Part shown: positions 8,994-31,546 of the stretch, one piece after another
How the letters are laid out: every line of letters begins with the position of its first letter
How positions within the stretch are numbered: position 1 is the first letter of the stretch
Source of the DNA: Nocardiopsis alborubida
GTDB taxonomy: Bacteria; Actinomycetota; Actinomycetes; Streptosporangiales; Streptosporangiaceae
Assembly: GCF_012396365.1 (NCBI RefSeq)
Contig: NZ_JAAXPG010000037.1
Location: 1-64,000, forward strand
Direction: 5' to 3'
Length of the DNA stretch: 64,000 nt
Position numbers and translations under genes: made by a program
The notes under the pieces: model-generated
What the model was told of the DNA's origin: nothing
Databases searched by the model: none
The model's input: only the letters and a program-made list of their open reading frames with translations

Positions 8994-9778
8994 TTCCGAC
9001 GACGATCCTCGCCGCTGCCGTCCTTCCTGCCGTGACCGTCGTGTCCCCGATGCTTCCTCCGCCGAGCGAGATCGACTTCAAAGGCAACGCCTCCTGCGAA
9101 GCATCTGGCTGCTCCGCCTTCGCTGAATCCGGGCAGCACAGCGGCGGCTCGTCGGGCGGCGCGCCCCGACCCGACGACGGGGGGACAGCCACGCTCTCCG
9201 CCGAGGACCCGTGCGTGGAGATGGACCGGGCGGAACCGGGCTGGACCTGCGTCGCCTCGACCAGGTCCGGCCCGGGCGGCGGCGGGGAAACCGTCAGCCC
9301 GCGCGAGGCCGCCGAACAGGCACGGGCCTCCATGAGCCTGCCCGCGCCCACCCTGGCCTCCTCACCCGCCGAGGACTCGGTCGTGCACTTCCCGGTATGG
9401 CTGTGGGTGGACGGCGCCGACTGGGAACCGGTCAGCGCGACCGCCTCCGTCTCCGCGGGCTCGGTCACCGTGACGGCCGTGCCGCAGCAGCTCCGCTGGG
9501 ACATGGGCGACGGAACGGTCCTCTACTGCGACGGACCCGGTACCGCCTTCGACCCCGCGCGCCACGACGCCGAGACGCCCTCACCCGACTGCGGCCACGC
9601 CTACACCCGCACGTCCCGCAACCAGCCCGACAACCGCTTCCCGGTCGCCGCCACGGTGTCCTGGACGGTGGAGTGGACCACCAGCGCGGGCGGCGGAGGC
9701 ACCCTCGACCCGTTGACGACCAGCGCATCCGACAGCGTCCGCGTGCGCGAGGTCCACGCGCTGGTCACCGACGGCTGA
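8972..9778 (+). CDS. Secreted protein with a PKD-like segment
   Basis: A 268-residue exported protein with a signal peptide after an Arg pair (GRRLVLIPTTILAAAVLPAV). It then has a Gly/Ser-rich linker, a region VHFPVWLWVDGADWEPVSAT, and a PKD-like strand LRWDMGDGT followed by CGHAYTRTS. Similar proteins occur in actinobacterial Tad loci, in the same position before the SAF/CpaB gene. Cys residues are few and paired. The GTG at 8972 gives the best n-region for the signal peptide; a second GTG at 8987 is possible. The function is unknown; an adhesin or pilus-associated role is inferred. Confidence 0.65.
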   Translation: MGRRLVLIPTTILAAAVLPAVTVVSPMLPPPSEIDFKGNASCEASGCSAFAESGQHSGGSSGGAPRPDDGGTATLSAEDPCVEMDRAEPGWTCVASTRSGPGGGGETVSPREAAEQARASMSLPAPTLASSPAEDSVVHFPVWLWVDGADWEPVSATASVSAGSVTVTAVPQQLRWDMGDGTVLYCDGPGTAFDPARHDAETPSPDCGHAYTRTSRNQPDNRFPVAATVSWTVEWTTSAGGGGTLDPLTTSASDSVRVREVHALVTDG

Positions 9779-10477: not shown

Positions 10478-11311
10478 ATGATCATCGCGGTGTGTTCGTT
10501 CTCGGGAGCTCCTGGGGTCACGACCCTGGCGACCGCCCTGGCGGCGGTGTGGCCCACGGGTCCGCTCACTGTTCCGGTACTGGTGGAGGCCGACGCCAGC
10601 GGCGGAGACCTGGCCGTGTGGCACCGGCTTGTCGGCCGACCCGGGCTGGTCTCGCTCGCGGCGTCGGTCCGGGCCGCCTCCGACCCGAACCCGGACGGGG
10701 AGCAGGGGACGCGGCGCGCCCTGCTGGCGCACGCCGCCGAACTCCCCGGAGGGCTGCGGGCCCTGGCCGCGCCGACCACGGCGCACGAGGCCTCCGCCGT
10801 GGTGACCGCGCTCGCGCACCGGGCCCGCGTCCTGCGGGGCGGGCTGACCGTCCTGGACCTGGGCCGGGTGGCCCCGGGGACCGCGGGCGCGCACCTGCTC
10901 ACCCTGTCCGACGCCGTGGTGCTGACCGTCGCGGGCGACGACGCCGCGCAGATCCACCGCGTCTCGCGCTGCCGCGACGTCCTGGAATCCTTGTCGGGCA
11001 AGGGCGCCGCGGTCGGTCTGGCGGTGCACGGCTCCCGCTTCTCCAGCGGCGAGATCACCGCCCAGACCGGCTGCCGGGTGTGGGCCCGGCTGCCGCACGA
11101 CCCGACCGGCGCGGCGTTCCTGCGCGGAGAGGACTCCCGCCCGCGGGGCTTGCGAGAGCGGATGGCCGCCTGGTCGCACACCCGCCACAACCCCGACGGC
11201 GTCGAGTGGATGCCGCTGCTGGCCGCCGCCCGCGGCCTGGCCGAACAGGTCGACGACGTGGTGGACGCCGCCGCGACCCTGCGCCGCTTCGAGGAGGCGT
11301 TCGCCGCGTGA
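10478..11311 (+). CDS. CpaE/ParA-like ATPase of the Tad locus
   Basis: A 277-residue MinD/ParA-type protein. The N-terminal strand and loop IIAVCSFSGAPGVTTLA is a degenerate deviant Walker A: the signature Lys is missing and the loop reads GAPGVTT. EADASGGDLAVWH is the switch region and LTVLDLGRVAPGTAG the Walker B-like strand. In Tad systems CpaE/TadZ localises the machine at the pole or septum and often has an inactive nucleotide site. It starts 38 bp after the SAF gene and overlaps tadA by four bases. Confidence 0.75.
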   Translation: MIIAVCSFSGAPGVTTLATALAAVWPTGPLTVPVLVEADASGGDLAVWHRLVGRPGLVSLAASVRAASDPNPDGEQGTRRALLAHAAELPGGLRALAAPTTAHEASAVVTALAHRARVLRGGLTVLDLGRVAPGTAGAHLLTLSDAVVLTVAGDDAAQIHRVSRCRDVLESLSGKGAAVGLAVHGSRFSSGEITAQTGCRVWARLPHDPTGAAFLRGEDSRPRGLRERMAAWSHTRHNPDGVEWMPLLAAARGLAEQVDDVVDAAATLRRFEEAFAA

Positions 11312-12633
11312 GCACCTCCGACGCCTCCCGCTTGGCCGCCCCGAGCAGTCACCGCGTCGCACCGCACCTGGCCGAGACCGCCGACCGGCTGGCCGACCGC
11401 GTCACCGACACCCTGGTCCGACAGGAATCGGACGCCCCGACGCGCGGCGGCGACCGCAGCCGGCGCGAACGCGCGGACGCGGTGCTCGCGGCCCTGCTGG
11501 AGGAGTACGCCTGCCGCGCCCTCACCGGATCCGCCCGCGCGTTGACCGGCCCCGAGGAGGAATGGGTCCGCGCACGCGCCCTGGCCCAGGTCTGCGGACT
11601 CGGTCCCCTCGAACTCCTGCTCGCCGAACCCGGCGTGCGCGACATCCACATCAACGGCACCCGCGTCTGGGTCGACCTCGGCGACGGCCGCCGAGAGGAA
11701 CGCGCGCCCGTCACCTCCACCGACGAGGAACTCGTCGCCCTGGTCCGGCGCCTGGCGGGACAGTCCCCCGGCGGAGAACGGCGCTTCGACGCCTCCGCGC
11801 CCCTGCTGAGCATGGAGCTGACCGGCGGCGCCCGCCTCTCCGCCGTCATGGGTGTCTCCCGGCGCCCGGCTGTCACCATCCGCCGCCACCCCGAACGCGA
11901 ACTCACCCTGGCCGACCTCACCGCCTCGGGCATGCTCACCCGCCCCGTGCGCTCCCTGCTCACCGCGGCCGTGCGCGCCCGGCTCAACCTCGTCATCGGC
12001 GGCGCCACTGGATCGGGCAAGACCACGCTGCTGCGCGCCCTGGCCCGCCACATCCCGCCCGCCGAACGCGTCATCACCGTCGAGGCCGCCTTCGAACTCA
12101 GGCTGGACGCCGACGAGGACCTCAACTGCCTCGCCCTCCAAGGCAGGCCGCCCAACACCGAGGGAGCCGGGGAGATCACCCTGGCCGACCTGGTCCGCCA
12201 CGCGCTGCGCATGTCCCCGGACCGGGTCATCGTCGGCGAGACCCGCGGACAGGAGACCGTCGCGCTCCTGCACGCCATGACCATGGGCACCGACGGTTCC
12301 ATGGCCACCGTGCACGCCTCCTCCTCGGAGCAGATCCTCACCAAACTCGCCACCTACGCCAACCAGGCCAGCGAACGCCTGACCCTGGAGGAGAGCGGCG
12401 TCCTCATCTCCTCCGCCGTCCACCTGGCCGTGCACATCGACACCGACGAGCACGGCGGCGGACGTGTCAGCAGCATCCGCGAGATCGTCGGCGTCGACGG
12501 GCCCCGGGTGGTCACCAACGAGGTCTACGCCCGCGAACACGGCGGGTTCACCACCCCGCTGAGCCCGCAGTACACCCGCGAGCTCGTCCGCGTCGGCTTC
12601 GACCCGGCCAGCCTGTTCGAGGACGCGGGGTGA
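11308..12633 (+). CDS. tadA: TadA/CpaF secretion ATPase
   Basis: A 441-residue type II/IV secretion ATPase that powers pilus assembly. Visible motifs are GGATGSGKTTLLRAL (Walker A), the Asp/Glu region ERVITVEAAFEL, MSPDRVIVGETRGQET (Walker B) and the His box ATVHASSSEQIL. The N-terminal domain has the usual PLELLLAEPGVRDIHINGT. The start is the GTG at 11308 in a GTGA overlap with the previous gene; a longer in-frame reading frame starting near 10492 is an artefact. One oddity is that the acidic box usually reads E-D-x-x-E-L, but here the second position is Ala. Confidence 0.9.
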   Translation: MSTSDASRLAAPSSHRVAPHLAETADRLADRVTDTLVRQESDAPTRGGDRSRRERADAVLAALLEEYACRALTGSARALTGPEEEWVRARALAQVCGLGPLELLLAEPGVRDIHINGTRVWVDLGDGRREERAPVTSTDEELVALVRRLAGQSPGGERRFDASAPLLSMELTGGARLSAVMGVSRRPAVTIRRHPERELTLADLTASGMLTRPVRSLLTAAVRARLNLVIGGATGSGKTTLLRALARHIPPAERVITVEAAFELRLDADEDLNCLALQGRPPNTEGAGEITLADLVRHALRMSPDRVIVGETRGQETVALLHAMTMGTDGSMATVHASSSEQILTKLATYANQASERLTLEESGVLISSAVHLAVHIDTDEHGGGRVSSIREIVGVDGPRVVTNEVYAREHGGFTTPLSPQYTRELVRVGFDPASLFEDAG

Positions 12634-13475
12634 CCACCGTCCTGGCCGCCAGCCTGGGCGGCGCCGCGGTCGGCTTGGGCCTGGTACTGCTCTGGCCCGT
12701 GCTCGCGGCGGCCCCCAGGCTCCTGCGCCCGCGGGTCAGCGTGCGCCGCGACGCCGTGTTCAGGGCGGCCGCCACCCTCGGCGCGGGCATGCTCGCCTGG
12801 GGCATCACCGGCTGGCCCGTCGCCGCCGCCCTGGCCGCCGCTGCCGCCTGGTGGCTGCCCGCCGTTCTGGGACCCGACCGGACCACCGCCGCCGAGATCG
12901 CCCGCATCGAGGCCGTCGCGGGCTGGACCGAACAACTGCGCGACCTCATCAGCGCCTCCTCCGGGCTCCGACAGGCCATCTGGACCTCCTGCGCCATCGC
13001 CCCCGAGGCCGTGCGCGGTGACGTGCAGGGACTGGCCGCGGACCTGACCGCGGGCAACGACCTGGAGGACGCGCTCACCGCCTTCGCCCACCGCGTCGAC
13101 AACGAGACCGCCGACCTGGTGGCCGCCGCGCTGTCCATGGCAGCCCACCGGCACGCCGCCGACCTGGGCACCCTCCTGGGAAGCCTGGCCGAGGCAGCGC
13201 GCGACCGCGCGTCCATGCTCGTGCGCACCTCCACCTCCCGGGCACGCACCCGCACCTCCGTCCGCATCATCACCACCGCCTCCCTCGCCATGGTCATCGG
13301 CATGGCCGCCCTCAACGGCCCCTACTTCGCTCCGCTCGGCTCGACCACCGGCCAACTCGTGCTCGCACTGGTCGGAACCGTGTGGGCGGGAGCGCTGTGG
13401 TGGCTGACGCGCCTGTCAGAGCCGCCGCGCACCGAACGCGTGCTGTCAGCCCACGAGCAGGAGGAGCGCATATGA
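12630..13475 (+). CDS. tadB: TadB-like inner-membrane pilus protein (GspF fold)
   Basis: A 281-residue membrane protein. Two N-terminal hydrophobic segments (LAASLGGAAVGLGLVLLWPV; LGAGMLAWGITGWPVAAALAA) are followed by a soluble four-helix region of the T2SSF type (GWTEQLRDLISASSGLRQAI; ADLVAAALSMAAHRHAADLG) and two C-terminal transmembrane segments. It starts at a GTG overlapping the tadA stop by four bases. TadB and TadC form the membrane platform that the ATPase drives. The gene symbol rests on position and topology. Confidence 0.85.
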   Translation: MTTVLAASLGGAAVGLGLVLLWPVLAAAPRLLRPRVSVRRDAVFRAAATLGAGMLAWGITGWPVAAALAAAAAWWLPAVLGPDRTTAAEIARIEAVAGWTEQLRDLISASSGLRQAIWTSCAIAPEAVRGDVQGLAADLTAGNDLEDALTAFAHRVDNETADLVAAALSMAAHRHAADLGTLLGSLAEAARDRASMLVRTSTSRARTRTSVRIITTASLAMVIGMAALNGPYFAPLGSTTGQLVLALVGTVWAGALWWLTRLSEPPRTERVLSAHEQEERI

Positions 13476-18859: not shown

Positions 18860-20350
18860 GTGAGCCCCGCGCACGCGGGGATGGACCGGGCACGCGGGTC
18901 CCGGCGGCTGCCAAGCCCGCGTGAGCCCCGCGCACGCGGGGATGGACCGAACCGGCCGCCGCCCCACCCAGAGAGGGCTCTGTGAGCCCCGCGCACGCGG
19001 GGATGGACCGAGCGCCAACGACGGCCTGGGTGGACAGTACGGGTGAGCCCCGCGCACGCGGGGATGGACCGCGCACGGATGCAGGATCAGAGGATTGTTG
19101 ACCGTGAGCCCCGCGCACGCGGGGATGGACCGGCGCAGAACATGATGTCGGAGTTTCGGTTAACGTGAGCCCCGCGCACGCGGGGATGGACCGGGCAAGC
19201 GCGCTTGGAGCCTGGACGACTTCCGTGAGCCCCGCGCACGCGGGGATGGACCGCCGAGGGCATCAACATCGACCACGCCGCCATGGTGAGCCCCGCGCAC
19301 GCGGGGATGGACCGACGGCCCCCGGGGACACCCCGGCGGCCGGTGAGTGAGCCCCGCGCACGCGGGGATGGACCGTTAGGTGACTAGCTTCTGAGGTTCT
19401 TAGGTGTGTGAGCCCCGCGCACGCGGGGATGGACCGCAGGCCGAATATGAGCGGATCTCGGGGGAGATGTGAGCCCCGCGCACGCGGGGATGGACCGTTC
19501 GGCGGCCCCCGGGACTCCCCAGCCCTGACGTGAGCCCCGCGCACGCGGGGATGGACCGCCCTGGAGGACCTGAACGACATCGAGGCGGCCGTGAGCCCCG
19601 CGCACGCGGGGATGGACCGCCACAGCACGACCAGGGCCAGGCCGAGGGGGAGTGAGCCCCGCGCACGCGGGGATGGACCGGCCCAGGCCCGCAAGAACGG
19701 CACCGACAAGAAGTGAGCCCCGCGCACGCGGGGATGGACCGTGGTCCCGCCTCCAGGTCAGATGGGCGGCTGCCGTGAGCCCCGCGCACGCGGGGATGGA
19801 CCGCCCACACGCGGGCCCTGGAGGACGAGAACCAGGTGAGCCCCGCGCACGCGGGGATGGACCGGTGGAACAGGTGCAGGACGGTCTCGAACCGGCGTGA
19901 GCCCCGCGCACGCGGGGATGGACCGGCTCGGACGCTGCACGTCCACCAGGTGGCGGAGTGAGCCCCGCGCACGCGGGGATGGACCGCCGCCGAGGTCTAC
20001 GAGGCCGCCCTAGGGGAGGTGAGCCCCGCGCACGCGGGGATGGACCGGTGCGCGCGGCGGTGCCGATGGCGCGGTCGGGTGAGCCCCGCGCACGCGGGGA
20101 TGGACCGAGTCTGGCCGTGCGCCACCAGTACCACGAGCAGTGAGCCCCGCGCACGCGGGGATGGACCGACCCCGAGACCGCCGACCTGTTCCTCACCGGC
20201 GTGAGCCCCGCGCACGCGGGGATGGACCGGTACTCATGGACGAGCGGCTAGGGCACACGGAGTGAGCCCCGCGCACGCGGGGATGGACCGGCCTGCCACT
20301 GGGCCGTGCTGACCCCCTCCGCGTGAGCCCCGCGCACGCGGGGATGGACC
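18860..20350 (+). CRISPR. CRISPR array 1, type I-E repeats, 25 repeats and 24 spacers
   Basis: Twenty-five copies of a 29-nt repeat (starts GTGAGCCCCGCGCACG and ends GGGGATGGACCG), starting at 18860, 18921, 18982 and so on to 20323, with a period of mostly 61 bp. Spacers are 31-33 nt. The repeat holds the CCCCGCGCACGCGGGG stem typical of type I-E crRNAs in actinobacteria. The repeats are essentially identical; the last differs only at its final base, where the array ends. Spacer 2 (18950-18981) is identical to spacer 2 of array 2. No cas gene is in the window, so Cascade, Cas3 and Cas1-Cas2 must be encoded elsewhere if the array is active. Confidence 0.98.
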
Positions 20351-25233: not shown

Positions 25234-26237
25234 GTGAGCCCCACGCACGTGGGGATGGACCGCCGGAGCTGGTCCTGGACACCCGCCGCAAGCGGTGAGC
25301 CCCACGCACGTGGGGATGGACCGAACCGGCCGCCGCCCCACCCAGAGAGGGCTCTGTGAGCCCCACGCACGTGGGGATGGACCGGCCTATCGGGAACAGG
25401 CATGGCGCACCCACCCGTGAGCCCCACGCACGTGGGGATGGACCGCCACAGGTCACCTCACAGGTCATGGTTTTCGCGTGAGCCCCACGCACGTGGGGAT
25501 GGACCGGAGTAGGAGGCCGCCGTGTCCTACCCCGCCCGTGAGCCCCACGCACGTGGGGATGGACCGCGGGATCACGACCTTCGCCTTGTCGTTGGTCTGT
25601 GAGCCCCACGCACGTGGGGATGGACCGGGGGACGAGGAGATCGGGTTCACCGCCCCCATGTGAGCCCCACGCACGTGGGGATGGACCGCAGACCCCTGCC
25701 GAGTCCCAGGCCCCTGCTCCGTGAGCCCCACGCACGTGGGGATGGACCGAGCTTGGTCATGAACTCCCGGGCGGCGGCCTTGTGAGCCCCACGCACGTGG
25801 GGATGGACCGGCCGGAGAGTGTTCCTCGAACAGAGAGAACAGGTGAGCCCCACGCACGTGGGGATGGACCGTCGTCGTACTCCTCTCAGGGCGGCGAGTG
25901 TGTGTGAGCCCCACGCACGTGGGGATGGACCGAAGTTCGCTCTCACCGCTCCGGTAGAGCGGGTGTGAGCCCCACGCACGTGGGGATGGACCGGTGCGCA
26001 CGGCCACGCCCGCGTACAGCGCGTCGTGAGCCCCACGCACGTGGGGATGGACCGGCCGTGTGGGACATCTGGCAGCGCAACCAGTTGTGAGCCCCACGCA
26101 CGTGGGGATGGACCGGCGGTGTCCTGCGCTCGCGGCATGTCCACCACGTGAGCCCCACGCACGTGGGGATGGACCGGCGCACGGGGAGGTGGCCACAGAG
26201 ATGTTGAGGTGAGCCCCGCGCACGCGGGAATGGGCCG
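25234..26237 (+). CRISPR. CRISPR array 2, type I-E repeats, 17 repeats and 16 spacers
   Basis: Seventeen 29-nt repeats starting at 25234 and then about every 61 bp to 26209, with 31-32-nt spacers. The repeat differs from array 1 only in the stem (CCCCACGCACGTGGGG in place of CCCCGCGCACGCGGGG), a compensated pair of changes that keeps the hairpin. The last repeat (26209-26237) is degenerate and carries the array 1 type stem (CCCCGCGCACGCGGGA). Spacer 2 (25324-25355) is identical to spacer 2 of array 1. Orientation is the same as array 1. No cas gene is next to it. Confidence 0.98.
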
Positions 26238-28458: not shown

Positions 28459-28514
28459 CAGGACGACCACCTCGCCTCCGCCCCGGGGGAGTGATCCGGA
28501 CAGGACCCCTCAGA

Positions 28515-28662
28515 TTCCGGGTGGCTCGCCCCTGCCCGCTCCGTTCCCGCCGACGACCCCCACCAGTTCTCCGGGCGCGGCCCGCAGGCTCACCCCGCGC
28601 AGGACACGCGCCTCGTCCCGAAGGCCTTGTGCGCGTCCGCCACGTGCAGCGTCAGGCGCTCT
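28515..28662 (-). pseudogene. ABC transporter ATPase, N-terminal fragment, frameshifted
   Basis: Just after the prenyltransferase stop, on the same strand, one frame reads LTLHVADAHKAFGTR and the next frame DEARVLRGVSLRAAPGELVG followed by VVGGNGAG. This is the start of an ABC ATPase ending inside its Walker A motif. One base change joins the two frames. The rest of the gene has been lost, probably together with the IS5 insertion that follows. Confidence 0.65.
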
Positions 28663-30346
28663 TCTCGTTCAGGGTGCCGCCGAAGCTCCTGCGCCGTTCC
28701 GCGTAGGCGTTCACGGCACGCACCAGGTGGGAGCGGTCGAAGTCGGGCCAGAGAGCGTCCTCGAAGACGATCTCGGCGTAGGCGGTGTGCCAGGGCAGGA
28801 AGTTGCTGGTGCGCTGCTCGCCGGCGGTCCTGATCAGGAGGTCCACGTCGGGCAGAGTGGGATCGTAGAGGTACCCGGCGAGGTCGGACTCCGTCATGCG
28901 CGTCGGGTCCAGCCGCCCCGAGAGCGCCTCGGCCGCCGTGCGCTTGAGCGCGTCCACCATCTCCTGGCGGCCTCCGTAGTCCAGGCAGCACGTGAACGTC
29001 ACCCCGCTGTTGCCCGACGTGAGCTCCTCGGCCCACTCCAGCCGTTCGCGGAGCGCCGCCTCGATCCTGGTGCGGCGGCCGTACCAGCGTATCCGGACGC
29101 CCCGTGCGTGCAGGCGCCCGGTGATCCCCGTGACGCGCCGGGCGAACATCCTGAACAAGGAGGACACTTCCTCGGGAGAGCGCGACCAGTTCTCAGTGGA
29201 GAAGGCGAAGGTGGTCACGTACTTGATGCCCAGGTCCCCGGCGGCGTCCACCAGACGGTACATCGCCTCCTCTCCGGCCATGTGCCCTTCCACCGCGGCC
29301 AGTCCGAGTGCTAAGGCCCACCGCCGGTTACCGTCCATGATCACGGCCACGTGCTCGGGGACCGCGGCGGGAGGGTCCTCGGAGTCCGGGGACGGGACGG
29401 GCGACCGCTGTTGCCGCGGCACGGAGTCGACGGGCAGGACTTCGGCGGGTGTCTCCCGGGTTTGCGACAACCGGGCGGGAACGGCTGTTCGCGGCGGAGC
29501 GTCCGGCCGGTTCGCCGGAAGGTACTCGCACTCGTCCAGGCCCGTTCGCAGCCCGGCCAGCAAGGAGGCGAGGAAGGGGCGGCTGGAAGGGTGCACGGCA
29601 TCGACCACCTCCTGCCCCCGGTCCAGCAGTCCGCGTGCCCGTCGCACCTGCAGGGCGATCAGTTCCCGACAGGCGTCCGTGCCGAGCGCGCCGTTCAGGC
29701 CGTCCGCGTCCAGGCCGAACCGCTCCAGGTCCTGGCGGGGCAGGTAGCAGCGGCCCTGTTCGAGGTCCTCGGGCAGGTCGGTGAGGATATCGATGTACTG
29801 GAGGACCTCGCCCAGCAGCGACATGAGTTCCGGGGTGTCCTCCCGGACCGGCTCCAAGACGGTGCCGAGCAGCTCCGCGACGGTGCCGCTCATACCGCGC
29901 AGATAGCCGCGCAGGTCGGCGAAGCCGGGAAAGCCGGGCGTTCGGCGGCTGTCCTGTTCGAGCGTGGTGAGGAGCTCCTCCAGCACCGGCGCGGGCATGT
30001 CCCACGCCCGCACCGTGTGGGCCATGGCGCGCTGGACCGGCGGCAGGCGGACGGGCGCGCCGGGTCCGTCGGCCAGCGCGGCCAGGGTCTCGGCGCGGAA
30101 CCGGGCCAGGGCCGGCCCGCGCTCGGATACCTCCCCCTCGTCGGCCAGCCGATCGGCCCATATCCCGAAGGCGACCAGTGCGTGCGCGTAGGGGCGCTTG
30201 TGGGCGGGCAGCAGATCGACGACCCGCGGAGAGAAGTGGTCCGCACCCGTGTGGATCCTGCGGCAGACCTCGAAGGCGCGCGCCAGGCCGGCGTCGGCGC
30301 CCCGCTCCGCGACCAGCAGGGGACCCGTCCCCATGTACCCGCTCAT
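28652..30346 (-). CDS. Fusion of squalene/phytoene-synthase-like domain and cis-prenyltransferase
   Basis: A 564-residue, two-domain protein. Residues 20-275 look like a head-to-head trans-isoprenyl synthase: LLPAHKRPYAHALVAFGIWA, first Asp motif DRLADE (65-70), YLRGMSGTVAELLG, second Asp motif DILTDLPED (186-194), GRCYLPRQDLERFGL. Residues 330-564 are a complete cis-prenyltransferase (UppS family): HVAVIMDGNRRWA with the catalytic Asp, FSTENWSR, CLDYGGRQEMVDA and DLLIRTAGEQRTSNFLPWH. A Pro-rich linker (280-328) joins them. The ATG at 30346 has a GGAGGA site seven bases upstream. Both active sites look intact, so it could make and join unusual prenyl diphosphates (inference). It is probably an accessory enzyme, not the essential UppS. 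Confidence 0.85.
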   Translation of the reverse strand: MSGYMGTGPLLVAERGADAGLARAFEVCRRIHTGADHFSPRVVDLLPAHKRPYAHALVAFGIWADRLADEGEVSERGPALARFRAETLAALADGPGAPVRLPPVQRAMAHTVRAWDMPAPVLEELLTTLEQDSRRTPGFPGFADLRGYLRGMSGTVAELLGTVLEPVREDTPELMSLLGEVLQYIDILTDLPEDLEQGRCYLPRQDLERFGLDADGLNGALGTDACRELIALQVRRARGLLDRGQEVVDAVHPSSRPFLASLLAGLRTGLDECEYLPANRPDAPPRTAVPARLSQTRETPAEVLPVDSVPRQQRSPVPSPDSEDPPAAVPEHVAVIMDGNRRWALALGLAAVEGHMAGEEAMYRLVDAAGDLGIKYVTTFAFSTENWSRSPEEVSSLFRMFARRVTGITGRLHARGVRIRWYGRRTRIEAALRERLEWAEELTSGNSGVTFTCCLDYGGRQEMVDALKRTAAEALSGRLDPTRMTESDLAGYLYDPTLPDVDLLIRTAGEQRTSNFLPWHTAYAEIVFEDALWPDFDRSHLVRAVNAYAERRRSFGGTLNEKSA

Positions 30347-30553
30347 CGCTGTTCCTCCGCGGTGACCGCAGGAGTGCGCACTCGCACCCGTGAAACGTTT
30401 CCAGCGAGGGGGTCCGCCTGTGTCCACACCCTGGTAAGCGCTGAGGGGATCTGAATAGTCACGCTGGGTATCATAATGGTTTTCGTACCTGTTGGGAACT
30501 GTGGGCGGCGGCCCTCGGGGCCGCTCGGTACCGGCGGTGTTCCGTGCCGGGTG

Positions 30554-30582
30554 GTGAGCCCCACGCACGTGCGACGGCGTGT
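30554..30582 (+). repeat. Solitary CRISPR-like repeat, array 2 type
   Basis: The first 18 bases (GTGAGCCCCACGCACGTG) are identical to the array 2 repeat; the remainder is diverged. It stands alone, upstream of the prenyltransferase fusion. With the copy at 28430 it brackets that gene. Confidence 0.65.
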
Positions 30583-30628
30583 GTGGACAGCCCGGCCGCG
30601 GCCAGGGCCGTCGAAGTGCGCCGCCGGT

Positions 30629-31546
30629 CTACTCGTGGACCCGGGTCAGAGGCTCGCTCAGGATCCGGTCGAGTGCCGCCCGTCCCGCCGGGCCCCACGC
30701 TGGCTTGCCGCCGGGCAGGCCGCGGTTCCCGTTCTGGCCCATCAGCATCAGGAAGAGGCTCTTGAGCGCGGCCAGTCCACGGGCGCGTCGGATCGTCGCC
30801 TCGTCAGCCTCCGCGTAGGCGGCGAAGAAGCGTGCGGCTGCGCCCATCGGCAGCAGTACCCAGGCGGCCGCCAGGTCCGAGGCCGGGTCGCCGACGAACA
30901 GGTCGCCGAAGTCGACGACACCCGCCAGCGTCCCGTCCGCGACGACGACGTTCGCGGGATGCAGGTCGCCGTGCACCCACACCGGCGGACCCTCCCACGC
31001 GGGGGCCGCGACGGCGTCGTCCCACACGGCCCGGACGTTGGCGGCGTCGGCGCCGATCGCGTCAGCGTCGAGGGAGTCGAAGAACTGGTCGAAGCCGTCC
31101 GCGCAGTCCTTGGGATGTGCGCCCCGGCCCGTGTCGACCGGTGCGTCGGCGGGCGCTGGCACGTGCAGCGCCCGGAGGAAGGCCGCCAGGGTGTGGGCCG
31201 CGTGCTCTCCGCGGGTGATCGCCCCGCGGTCCAGCGGCAGGCCCGGCACCCACGTCATGACCGTCCACATCTTGGGGAATCGCTCGGAGGGGGCACCATC
31301 GCGTACCGGGACGGGGACGGGCAGCGGCAGGTGCGGGGCGAGCAGCGGCAGCCACCGGCGCTCCTTGAGCTGGGGGACGGGGTCGGTGTCCATGCGCTGG
31401 ATCCGCACGGCAAGCTCGTCCCCGAGGCGCCACATCTGGTTGCCCCAGCCGCCCTCCACCTCGCGCAGGGGCAGTTCGGCCAGGTCCGGGTGCTGGTCCC
31501 GCAGCAGGGCGCGGATGAGACCCGCGGTGATCTCGATCTCGGTCAT
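30629..31546 (-). CDS. Aminoglycoside/macrolide phosphotransferase-family protein
   Basis: A 305-residue kinase-like protein of the APH family. It shows a nucleotide-binding start (VEGGWGNQMWRLGDELAVRI), the hinge VMTWVPGLPL, the catalytic loop VWVHGDLHPANVVV (His, Asp, Asn) and the metal-binding DFGDLFVGDPASDLA. Such enzymes phosphorylate antibiotics or small alcohols. The substrate cannot be read; the sequence best resembles chromosomal macrolide 2'-phosphotransferase-like proteins of actinobacteria, many of which confer no resistance. I chose the ATG at 31546; an in-frame TTG three codons earlier is possible. Confidence 0.85.
   Translation of the reverse strand: MTEIEITAGLIRALLRDQHPDLAELPLREVEGGWGNQMWRLGDELAVRIQRMDTDPVPQLKERRWLPLLAPHLPLPVPVPVRDGAPSERFPKMWTVMTWVPGLPLDRGAITRGEHAAHTLAAFLRALHVPAPADAPVDTGRGAHPKDCADGFDQFFDSLDADAIGADAANVRAVWDDAVAAPAWEGPPVWVHGDLHPANVVVADGTLAGVVDFGDLFVGDPASDLAAAWVLLPMGAAARFFAAYAEADEATIRRARGLAALKSLFLMLMGQNGNRGLPGGKPAWGPAGRAALDRILSEPLTRVHE

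Follow-up and report, generated by a model that had tools for sequence, protein, structure and literature searches.

A squalene/phytoene-synthase-like domain fused to a cis-prenyltransferase in Nocardiopsis alborubida: a candidate bifunctional prenylation enzyme of actinomycetes

Within a 64,000-nucleotide stretch of the Nocardiopsis alborubida genome (contig NZ_JAAXPG010000037.1, positions 1 to 64,000; hereafter the window), we analysed a gene that joins a squalene/phytoene-synthase-like (PSL) domain to a cis-prenyltransferase domain in a single protein. A fusion of this kind had been predicted from the sequence alone, and its coordinates (28652-30346) and length (564 residues) proved correct; the strand, which the original prediction did not state, is minus. 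A plus-strand reading of 28652-30346 was rejected because it differs from the fusion protein. The gene comprises the following features.

28652-30346, minus strand: fusion gene encoding the PSL domain, a proline-rich linker and the cis-prenyltransferase, 564 amino acids plus stop (translation, Pfam, orthologues)
30354-30358, minus strand: GGAGG, likely ribosome-binding site for the ATG at 30346 (sequence)
29510-30226, minus strand: PF00494 PSL domain, residues 41-279 (Pfam)
30137-30154, minus strand: first aspartate motif, DRLADE, residues 65-70 (translation, alignment of 17 fusions)
29765-29791, minus strand: second aspartate motif, DILTDLPED, residues 186-194 (translation, alignment of 17 fusions)
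29366-29509, minus strand: proline-rich interdomain linker, residues 280-327 (alignment, codon analysis)
28679-29341, minus strand: PF01255 cis-prenyltransferase domain, residues 336-556 (Pfam)

Both domains were recognised by hmmscan against Pfam, with residues 41-279 matching PF00494 (E 1.4e-41; 143 bits vs a cut-off of 26) and residues 336-556 matching PF01255 (E 2.3e-71; 240 bits vs a cut-off of 27). The motifs that had been predicted, namely DRLADE and DILTDLPED at the positions listed above together with MDGNRRWA, FSTENW and DLLIRTAGEQRTSNF, were all present in the translated window protein. The 564-codon frame is also open, from the identical start, in five close relatives, and a frameshift or misassembly artefact was rejected, given a single open frame at 17 loci of 16 genomes, several of them on contigs longer than 5 Mb. 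The linker is proline-rich in the window's group (24% proline in the window protein) and ranges from 35 to 74 residues across 17 relatives when measured between fixed alignment columns.

The survey of fused versus split forms across actinobacteria that the original prediction had proposed recovered 19 fusion loci from two actinomycete families, with stand-alone PSL proteins elsewhere; the loci lie in 18 genomes, and 17 of them (in 16 genomes) are intact. Frequencies refer to the genome samples drawn, some of which overlap; the alignment and residue counts use the 17 intact fusions and exclude two damaged loci, a frameshifted gene in G729 and a gene in G1019 that retains its N-terminal piece only. 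A full-length fusion was present in 7 of the 40 genomes searched in the window's genus, and identity to the window fusion was 85-97% in five and 50% in G018. At the level of the family (8 of 298 genomes, including the window's genus), the added carrier was G045, which belongs to another genus. The class sample of 394 genomes yielded 25 with a PSL match at E ≤1e-45; six were fused (G000, G007, G038, G045, G527 and G549), and the other 19 carried a stand-alone PSL with no cis-prenyltransferase within 1.5 kb on either side where the contig allowed. A large genus of the second family (f18, presumably Streptomycetaceae) had the fusion-type domain (E ≤1e-60) in 10 of 392 genomes, with two copies in G549, and the phylum sample (296 genomes, E ≤1e-50) contained the fusion only in the window's own genome, its four other matches being stand-alone. 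A homologue search of genome contigs (best 80 of more than 590 places) returned matched segments within residues 276-564; these are cis-prenyltransferases and were excluded from the fusion count. Separately, a Streptomyces tendae plasmid (NZ_CP043960.1; L147 14795-21248) carries a divergent fusion with a shortened PSL part, outside the 19 loci. Its 537-residue product is annotated as a polyprenyl diphosphate synthase and matches PF00494 (E 1.2e-14) and PF01255, and the gene stands in a row behind two others, one for a CHAT-domain protein and one for a long hypothetical product resembling tetratricopeptide repeats by eye (no NCBIfam match).

The 17 PSL domains form one clade (support 100/98), as do the 17 cis-prenyltransferase domains (98/94), and both trees contain the same main groups: six close relatives including the window's, L153 with L154, and the nine f18 copies. 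Because both halves are monophyletic and their groups match, the trees are consistent with a single old fusion, after which the two halves descended or were transferred together. Between the two families, the PSL halves share only ~40% identity. Among the six close relatives, the pairwise ratio of nonsynonymous to synonymous substitution rates (dN/dS) was 0.36-0.45 over codons 1-560; by part, it was 0.19-0.44 for the PSL half, 0.27-0.59 for the cis-prenyltransferase half and 0.24-1.8 for the linker (codons 285-325), compared with 0.12-0.24 for the housekeeping UppS encoded in these six genomes. Purifying selection acts on both halves, less strongly than on UppS. The two Pfam matches, the 17 intact loci and this selection bear out the predicted two-domain fusion.

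In the cis-PRENYLTRANSFERASE half, D26, R30, F70, S71, E73, N74, R77, R194, E198, R200, S202 and E213 were conserved in 17/17 fusions and H43 in 16/17; the numbering is that of the E. coli enzyme, in which D26, H43, R77, R194, R200, S202 and E213 are catalytic or bind isopentenyl diphosphate (IPP). The full UppS-type catalytic motif set that had been predicted is thus present, with H43 in a single fusion as the exception. The window protein also matched TIGR00055 (NCBIfam; 233 bits vs a cut-off of 109.6). In the tree, the fusion domains were sister to long-chain actinobacterial UppS (branch 95/68) and distant from the short-chain enzyme Rv1086. E. coli position 69 was Ala in 15 of the 17 fusions, including the window protein, as in long-chain rows, and Met and Val in the other two, with Leu in Rv1086. 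The listed catalytic residues and the sister position are thus common to the fusions and to UppS/decaprenyl diphosphate synthases (TIGR00055; Rv2361c, 7cpm/7cpn); unlike these, the fusion domain is a third copy in the genome, lies C-terminally in a fusion, forms its own clade and carries Asp at E. coli position 144 (17/17 fusions; 41 N, 4 D and 2 G in non-fused rows). In an AlphaFold2 model of the whole window protein, for which 17 added alignment rows were cis-prenyltransferase only, the C-terminal half was mostly confident (whole-protein mean predicted local distance difference test 61.2, predicted template-modelling score 0.45). On the conserved residues and the tree, this half is expected to be active and to make a medium to long chain.

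The same genome encodes two more PF01255 proteins, C56 (grouping in the tree with the long-chain Rv2361c/7cpn type) and C11 (grouping with the short-chain Rv1086 type), and one more PF00494 protein with canonical motifs (C23). Since separate genes of both families are present, the fusion is an accessory enzyme.

For the N-terminal half, the original prediction had named a missing PF00494 match and unconserved aspartates as grounds for rejecting it; besides the match given above, the metal-binding D65, D69, D190 and D194 of both DxxxD motifs were invariant (17/17). R45, N168 and R171 (CrtM numbering) were each found in 0/17 fusions, whereas they were kept in 34/34, 34/35 and 33/35 canonical-side rows with a letter at the position. 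These 35 rows comprise CrtB, CrtM, two HpnC, HpnD and the protein from Streptomyces sp. BHT-5-2, the rest being mostly CrtB-like proteins yet to be characterised; L137 and L181 are one gene counted twice, and every exception is an HpnC row (one at position 168 and two at 171). LvqB4, CqsB4 and an Embleya relative likewise lack all three residues (0/3), and L208, a fourth member of the LvqB4/CqsB4 group, retains R45 and lacks N168 and R171. A profile built from six diverse fusion domains gave 12 PDB matches, in which LvqB4 (4e-34), HpnC (1e-33) and CqsB4 (6.5e-33) stood well ahead of CrtB (1e-23) and CrtM (~2e-19). In a 59-row tree, the 17 fusion domains grouped with LvqB4, CqsB4 and the stand-alone PSLs L203-L205, L208 and L209 (support 98/92), apart from CrtB, CrtM, HpnC and HpnD; LvqB4 and CqsB4 were the characterised acceptor-type references. 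All five phytoene synthase/squalene synthase (PSY/SQS) models of NCBIfam that matched scored under their cut-offs (HpnD 105 vs 279, HpnC 92 vs 250). From the residue losses and the tree position, we infer that the N-terminal half is an acceptor-type PSL transferase, and the head-to-head synthase that had been predicted for it is doubtful. An HP[ST]SR tail was rejected as a signature of acceptor transferases, being present in carotenoid-type stand-alone proteins too. L203, L204 and L205, from Streptomyces plasmids, are stand-alone PSLs sister to the fusion domains (93/87), and their second motif likewise begins with Asp; each gene lies behind a ~1.3 kb hypothetical gene, preceded in L203 and L204 by a DUF6545 gene.

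Among known systems, CqsB4, LvqB4, NzsG, DmtC1 and NozPT have the fold family and both aspartate motifs in common with the PSL half; CqsB4 and LvqB4, the two whose sequences we compared, further resemble it in the loss of R45, an Asn-to-Asp change at the start of motif 2 and the loss of R171. HpnC/HpnD and CrtB have PF00494 and the four metal aspartates in common with the fusions, but the fusions lack R45, N168 and R171 (HpnC also lacks R171), score below the equivalog cut-offs and fall on the opposite side of the tree. The lavanduquocin-type pathway uses a cyclolavandulyl diphosphate synthase of cis-prenyltransferase fold together with LvqB4; donor synthase and PSL transferase thus act in one pathway, but from separate genes, and cyclolavandulyl diphosphate synthase matches the cis-prenyltransferase domain of the fusion weakly (~1e-12). 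As described in PMC7466098, PMC6173783 and PMC10156859, PSL transferases transfer groups from dimethylallyl diphosphate or farnesyl diphosphate to carbazoles and tryptophan diketopiperazines and are stand-alone members of carbazole/diketopiperazine pathways, whereas the fusion is joined to its presumed donor synthase.

Streptomyces sp. BHT-5-2 (NZ_CP081497.1; L146 19761-23796) has a separate cis-prenyltransferase gene directly followed by a PSY-type gene and then an MMPL transporter gene. Its PSY-type protein has R45, N168 and R171 and an odd first motif, DEMSE; the region is unannotated and the gene starts are uncertain. By its sequence, this is a second, independent pairing of the two predicted chemistries. 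The split pair was rejected as an ancestor of the fusion, given its canonical residues, a place in the tree with CrtB/HpnC/HpnD (on a long branch) and reversed gene order.

In the window's family, the fusion gene is linked to genes for an ATP-binding cassette (ABC) ATPase and a permease. In G009, G037 and G045, the fusion stop overlaps the ATPase start (TGATG), the end of the ATPase gene overlaps the permease gene, and both frames are open; the G045 ATPase matches PF00005. Remnants of this pair lie directly behind the fusion gene in the window.

28533-28652, minus strand: ABC ATPase remnant, start ATG read as ACG, 2-bp insertion, ~40 codons left (comparison with relatives)
28501-28531, minus strand: ABC permease end remnant, brought next to the ATPase remnant by a deletion (29/31 bases identical to L152)

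Both the window and G007 have ACG at the ATPase start and a deletion that joins approximately codon 40 to the permease end; the frame-breaking 2-bp insertion was shown for the window. The ATPase start is also ACG in G011, where a recognisable match of 25 codons remains, and an in-frame deletion in G038 joins ATPase codon 182 to the permease end. No ABC pair was found on the 17.9-kb contig of G018. The window strain has therefore lost the exporter pair, and its fusion enzyme is intact. Between the fusion and the APH-type gene, G007, whose closest relative found is the window strain, has three extra predicted genes (L148 11012-13294 vs window 30568-30629): a C39-type peptidase, a Mur-ligase-type protein and one small protein, all missing in the window strain.

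The f18 fusions have a different neighbour. At nine loci, the fusion lies tail to tail, 16-283 bp apart, with a gene for a ~215-residue protein that has a twin-arginine-like signal and a C-terminal end of YTPP or YNPP plus a few residues. Members of this family were found at L155, L156, L157, L167 and L185-L189, at full length only beside intact fusions. In the 392-genome f18 sample, for which two draws (fusion and partner) were taken as one set since the genome handles shown agree, a full-length partner occurred in 8 genomes, exactly the 8 with an intact fusion. Counted as 8/10 fusion-type genomes vs 0/382 others, Fisher's exact test gave p 3.5e-15, with relatedness ignored. Of the genomes with damaged fusions, G729 has a 37-residue partner fragment and G1019 none, and weak partial partner matches occurred in two other genomes (G894, 1.1e-12; G728, 1.8e-4). 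G894 has a partner fragment (L201 ~9290-9492) and, across the 18 kb retrieved, nothing that matches the fusion; the fragment is perhaps a relic of a lost cassette. In G728, neither partner nor fusion was found by tblastn (E 0.01) in the 18 kb fetched. The partner is absent from all 8 fusion genomes of the window's family, and no Pfam match to it was stronger than E 0.022, while the PDB (to E 10) and NCBIfam returned none. In PADLOC, neither the fusion nor its secreted partner nor the permease had a defence match, and the ATPase matched only as expected for an ABC ATPase.

We tentatively favour, with confidence a little short of even, a bifunctional accessory prenylation enzyme whose C-terminal half makes a Z-prenyl diphosphate and whose N-terminal half transfers the prenyl group to an acceptor. 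Starting from an allylic diphosphate, the C-terminal domain would add IPP units to build a (Z,E)-prenyl diphosphate whose chain is probably medium to long; the cis-prenyltransferase step is strongly predicted. The DxxxD motifs of the PSL half would then bind magnesium and ionise the diphosphate delivered by the neighbouring half, and the prenyl group would pass to one acceptor rather than two allylic diphosphates being joined head to head. On the strength of the ABC pair and the secreted partner, we infer that the product is exported in relatives, in the window's family by a co-translated ABC exporter, and that in f18 the co-inherited secreted protein would act outside the cell. That the fusion is a 'make-and-attach' polypeptide, in which a long Z-prenyl diphosphate is placed on a small-molecule acceptor to give a secreted cis-polyprenylated compound from a two- to three-gene cassette, is a possibility we regard as doubtful but real.

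Several observations weigh against this interpretation. When the fusions (with L203-L205) were forced to the reference synthases or to the 28 CrtB-like rows, approximately unbiased (AU) tests rejected these topologies by a narrow margin (p 0.047 and 0.046), either one costing only ~7.6 likelihood units. Because these tests are borderline and several reference rows are long branches, the PSL placement is supported but not certain; the sister proteins L203-L205 are, moreover, uncharacterised. The dN/dS of the fusion is ~2x that of the housekeeping UppS, which indicates relaxed constraint, and the AlphaFold2 model of the PSL half, although all-helical, had low confidence and is unreliable for the PSL site or the domain arrangement. 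The permease is a weak ABC-2 match in G009 (E 0.0057, below the cut-off) and has no match in G045, so the label 'ABC exporter' leans on gene order too. Among the annotated neighbours, which do not cover every neighbour, we recognised no conserved gene for making an acceptor next to the fusion, so the acceptor would have to be drawn from general metabolism, if there is one at all. The PSL transferases described in PMC7466098, PMC6173783 and PMC10156859 use C5 or C15 donors and not long cis chains.

The main rival reading, unlikely in our view yet far from negligible, is that the PSL half couples two prenyl diphosphates, joining Z-prenyl diphosphates head to head or irregularly into an exported, cis-rich squalene- or phytoene-like lipid. 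In its favour are the retention of all four metal aspartates and the NCBIfam matches to HpnD and HpnC, though these are below the cut-offs; HpnC is as close in the PDB search as LvqB4, no acceptor gene was recognised in the operon, and BHT-5-2 pairs separate cis-prenyltransferase and canonical-residue PSY-type genes. The absence of R45, N168 and R171 from 17/17 fusions speaks against coupling, as does the grouping with acceptor-type transferases, albeit at an AU p of ~0.05. Alternatively, the PSL half might be a phosphatase or a class-I cyclase that has the polyprenyl diphosphate as its sole substrate and releases a polyprenol or a cyclised terpene. YisP of Bacillus is a precedent of this type, and such a reaction requires neither an acceptor gene nor a second allylic site; YisP is among the PDB family matches, but as the weakest of the 12 (9.4e-13), and it is absent from the tree, and we consider this route improbable.

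A scaffold or sensor role, in which a non-catalytic PSL half regulates the cis-prenyltransferase for the lipid-carrier pool, seems very improbable. The relaxed dN/dS would suit it, and a third cis-prenyltransferase needs a special role where long- and short-chain types already exist in the genome; however, the metal aspartates, needless in a pure scaffold, are invariant in 17/17 despite ~40% PSL identity between the families. The regulation of lipid carrier flux suggested in the original prediction likewise found no direct support; the genome has its own long-chain (C56) and short-chain type (C11) enzymes. Compatible with the other readings, and unlikely in its own right, is the view that the window locus is a decaying relic whose exporter has been deleted and whose enzyme will follow. 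The ATPase/permease remnant in the window, the losses in G011 and G038, the frameshifted and truncated fusions of G729 and G1019 and a dN/dS above the UppS control all point that way. Against decay, the open reading frame is fully open, dN/dS is still 0.36-0.45, and G000 and G007 have a common exporter loss yet their enzymes remain 97% identical.

The original prediction held that no example of this combination had been characterised, and we found no published description of such a fusion in the full-text literature searched, which covers few subscription papers. Both domain families are known; as far as we have seen, the combination, its operon and the co-inherited secreted partner are new. 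Fusions of consecutive enzymes often point to pathways, and this one connects lipid-carrier-type chain elongation with the transferase family of indole/carbazole natural products, accompanied by an exporter or by a secreted protein that co-occurs with it and belongs to no known family. A make-and-attach enzyme, if real, would yield a class of prenyl lipid not yet recognised in actinomycetes and would be, to our knowledge, the first transferase of PSL type to use a long cis donor. The cassette is small, and no further pathway genes were recognised in it.

The genes around the window fusion encode an aldo/keto reductase, HxlR and TetR regulators, an APH-type kinase, an SDR protein and a chitinase, and no classical terpene gene cluster was seen in their Pfam/NCBIfam annotation. 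Terpene cyclases, for which a look near homologues had been proposed, were not recognised among the annotated neighbours, nor were cyclodipeptide synthase or carbazole genes; not every neighbour was annotated. Within the stretches compared, aldo/keto-reductase-type genes recur in 6/21 sources at varying distance and were rejected as a partner, the family probably being a common one. Elsewhere in the window, two overlapping plus-strand frames at 10492-13475 match a type II/IV secretion ATPase (PF00437, E 1.6e-32) and T2SSF (below the cut-off), perhaps a tad/flp-type pilus locus. Two arrays of clustered regularly interspaced short palindromic repeats lie on one side of the fusion gene, at 18860-20350 and 25234-26175, with 25 and 16 copies of the closely related 28-nt repeats GTGAGCCCCGCGCACGCGGGGATGGACC and GTGAGCCCCACGCACGTGGGGATGGACC at ~61-nt spacing; the second array ends in an extra degenerate repeat copy near 26209.

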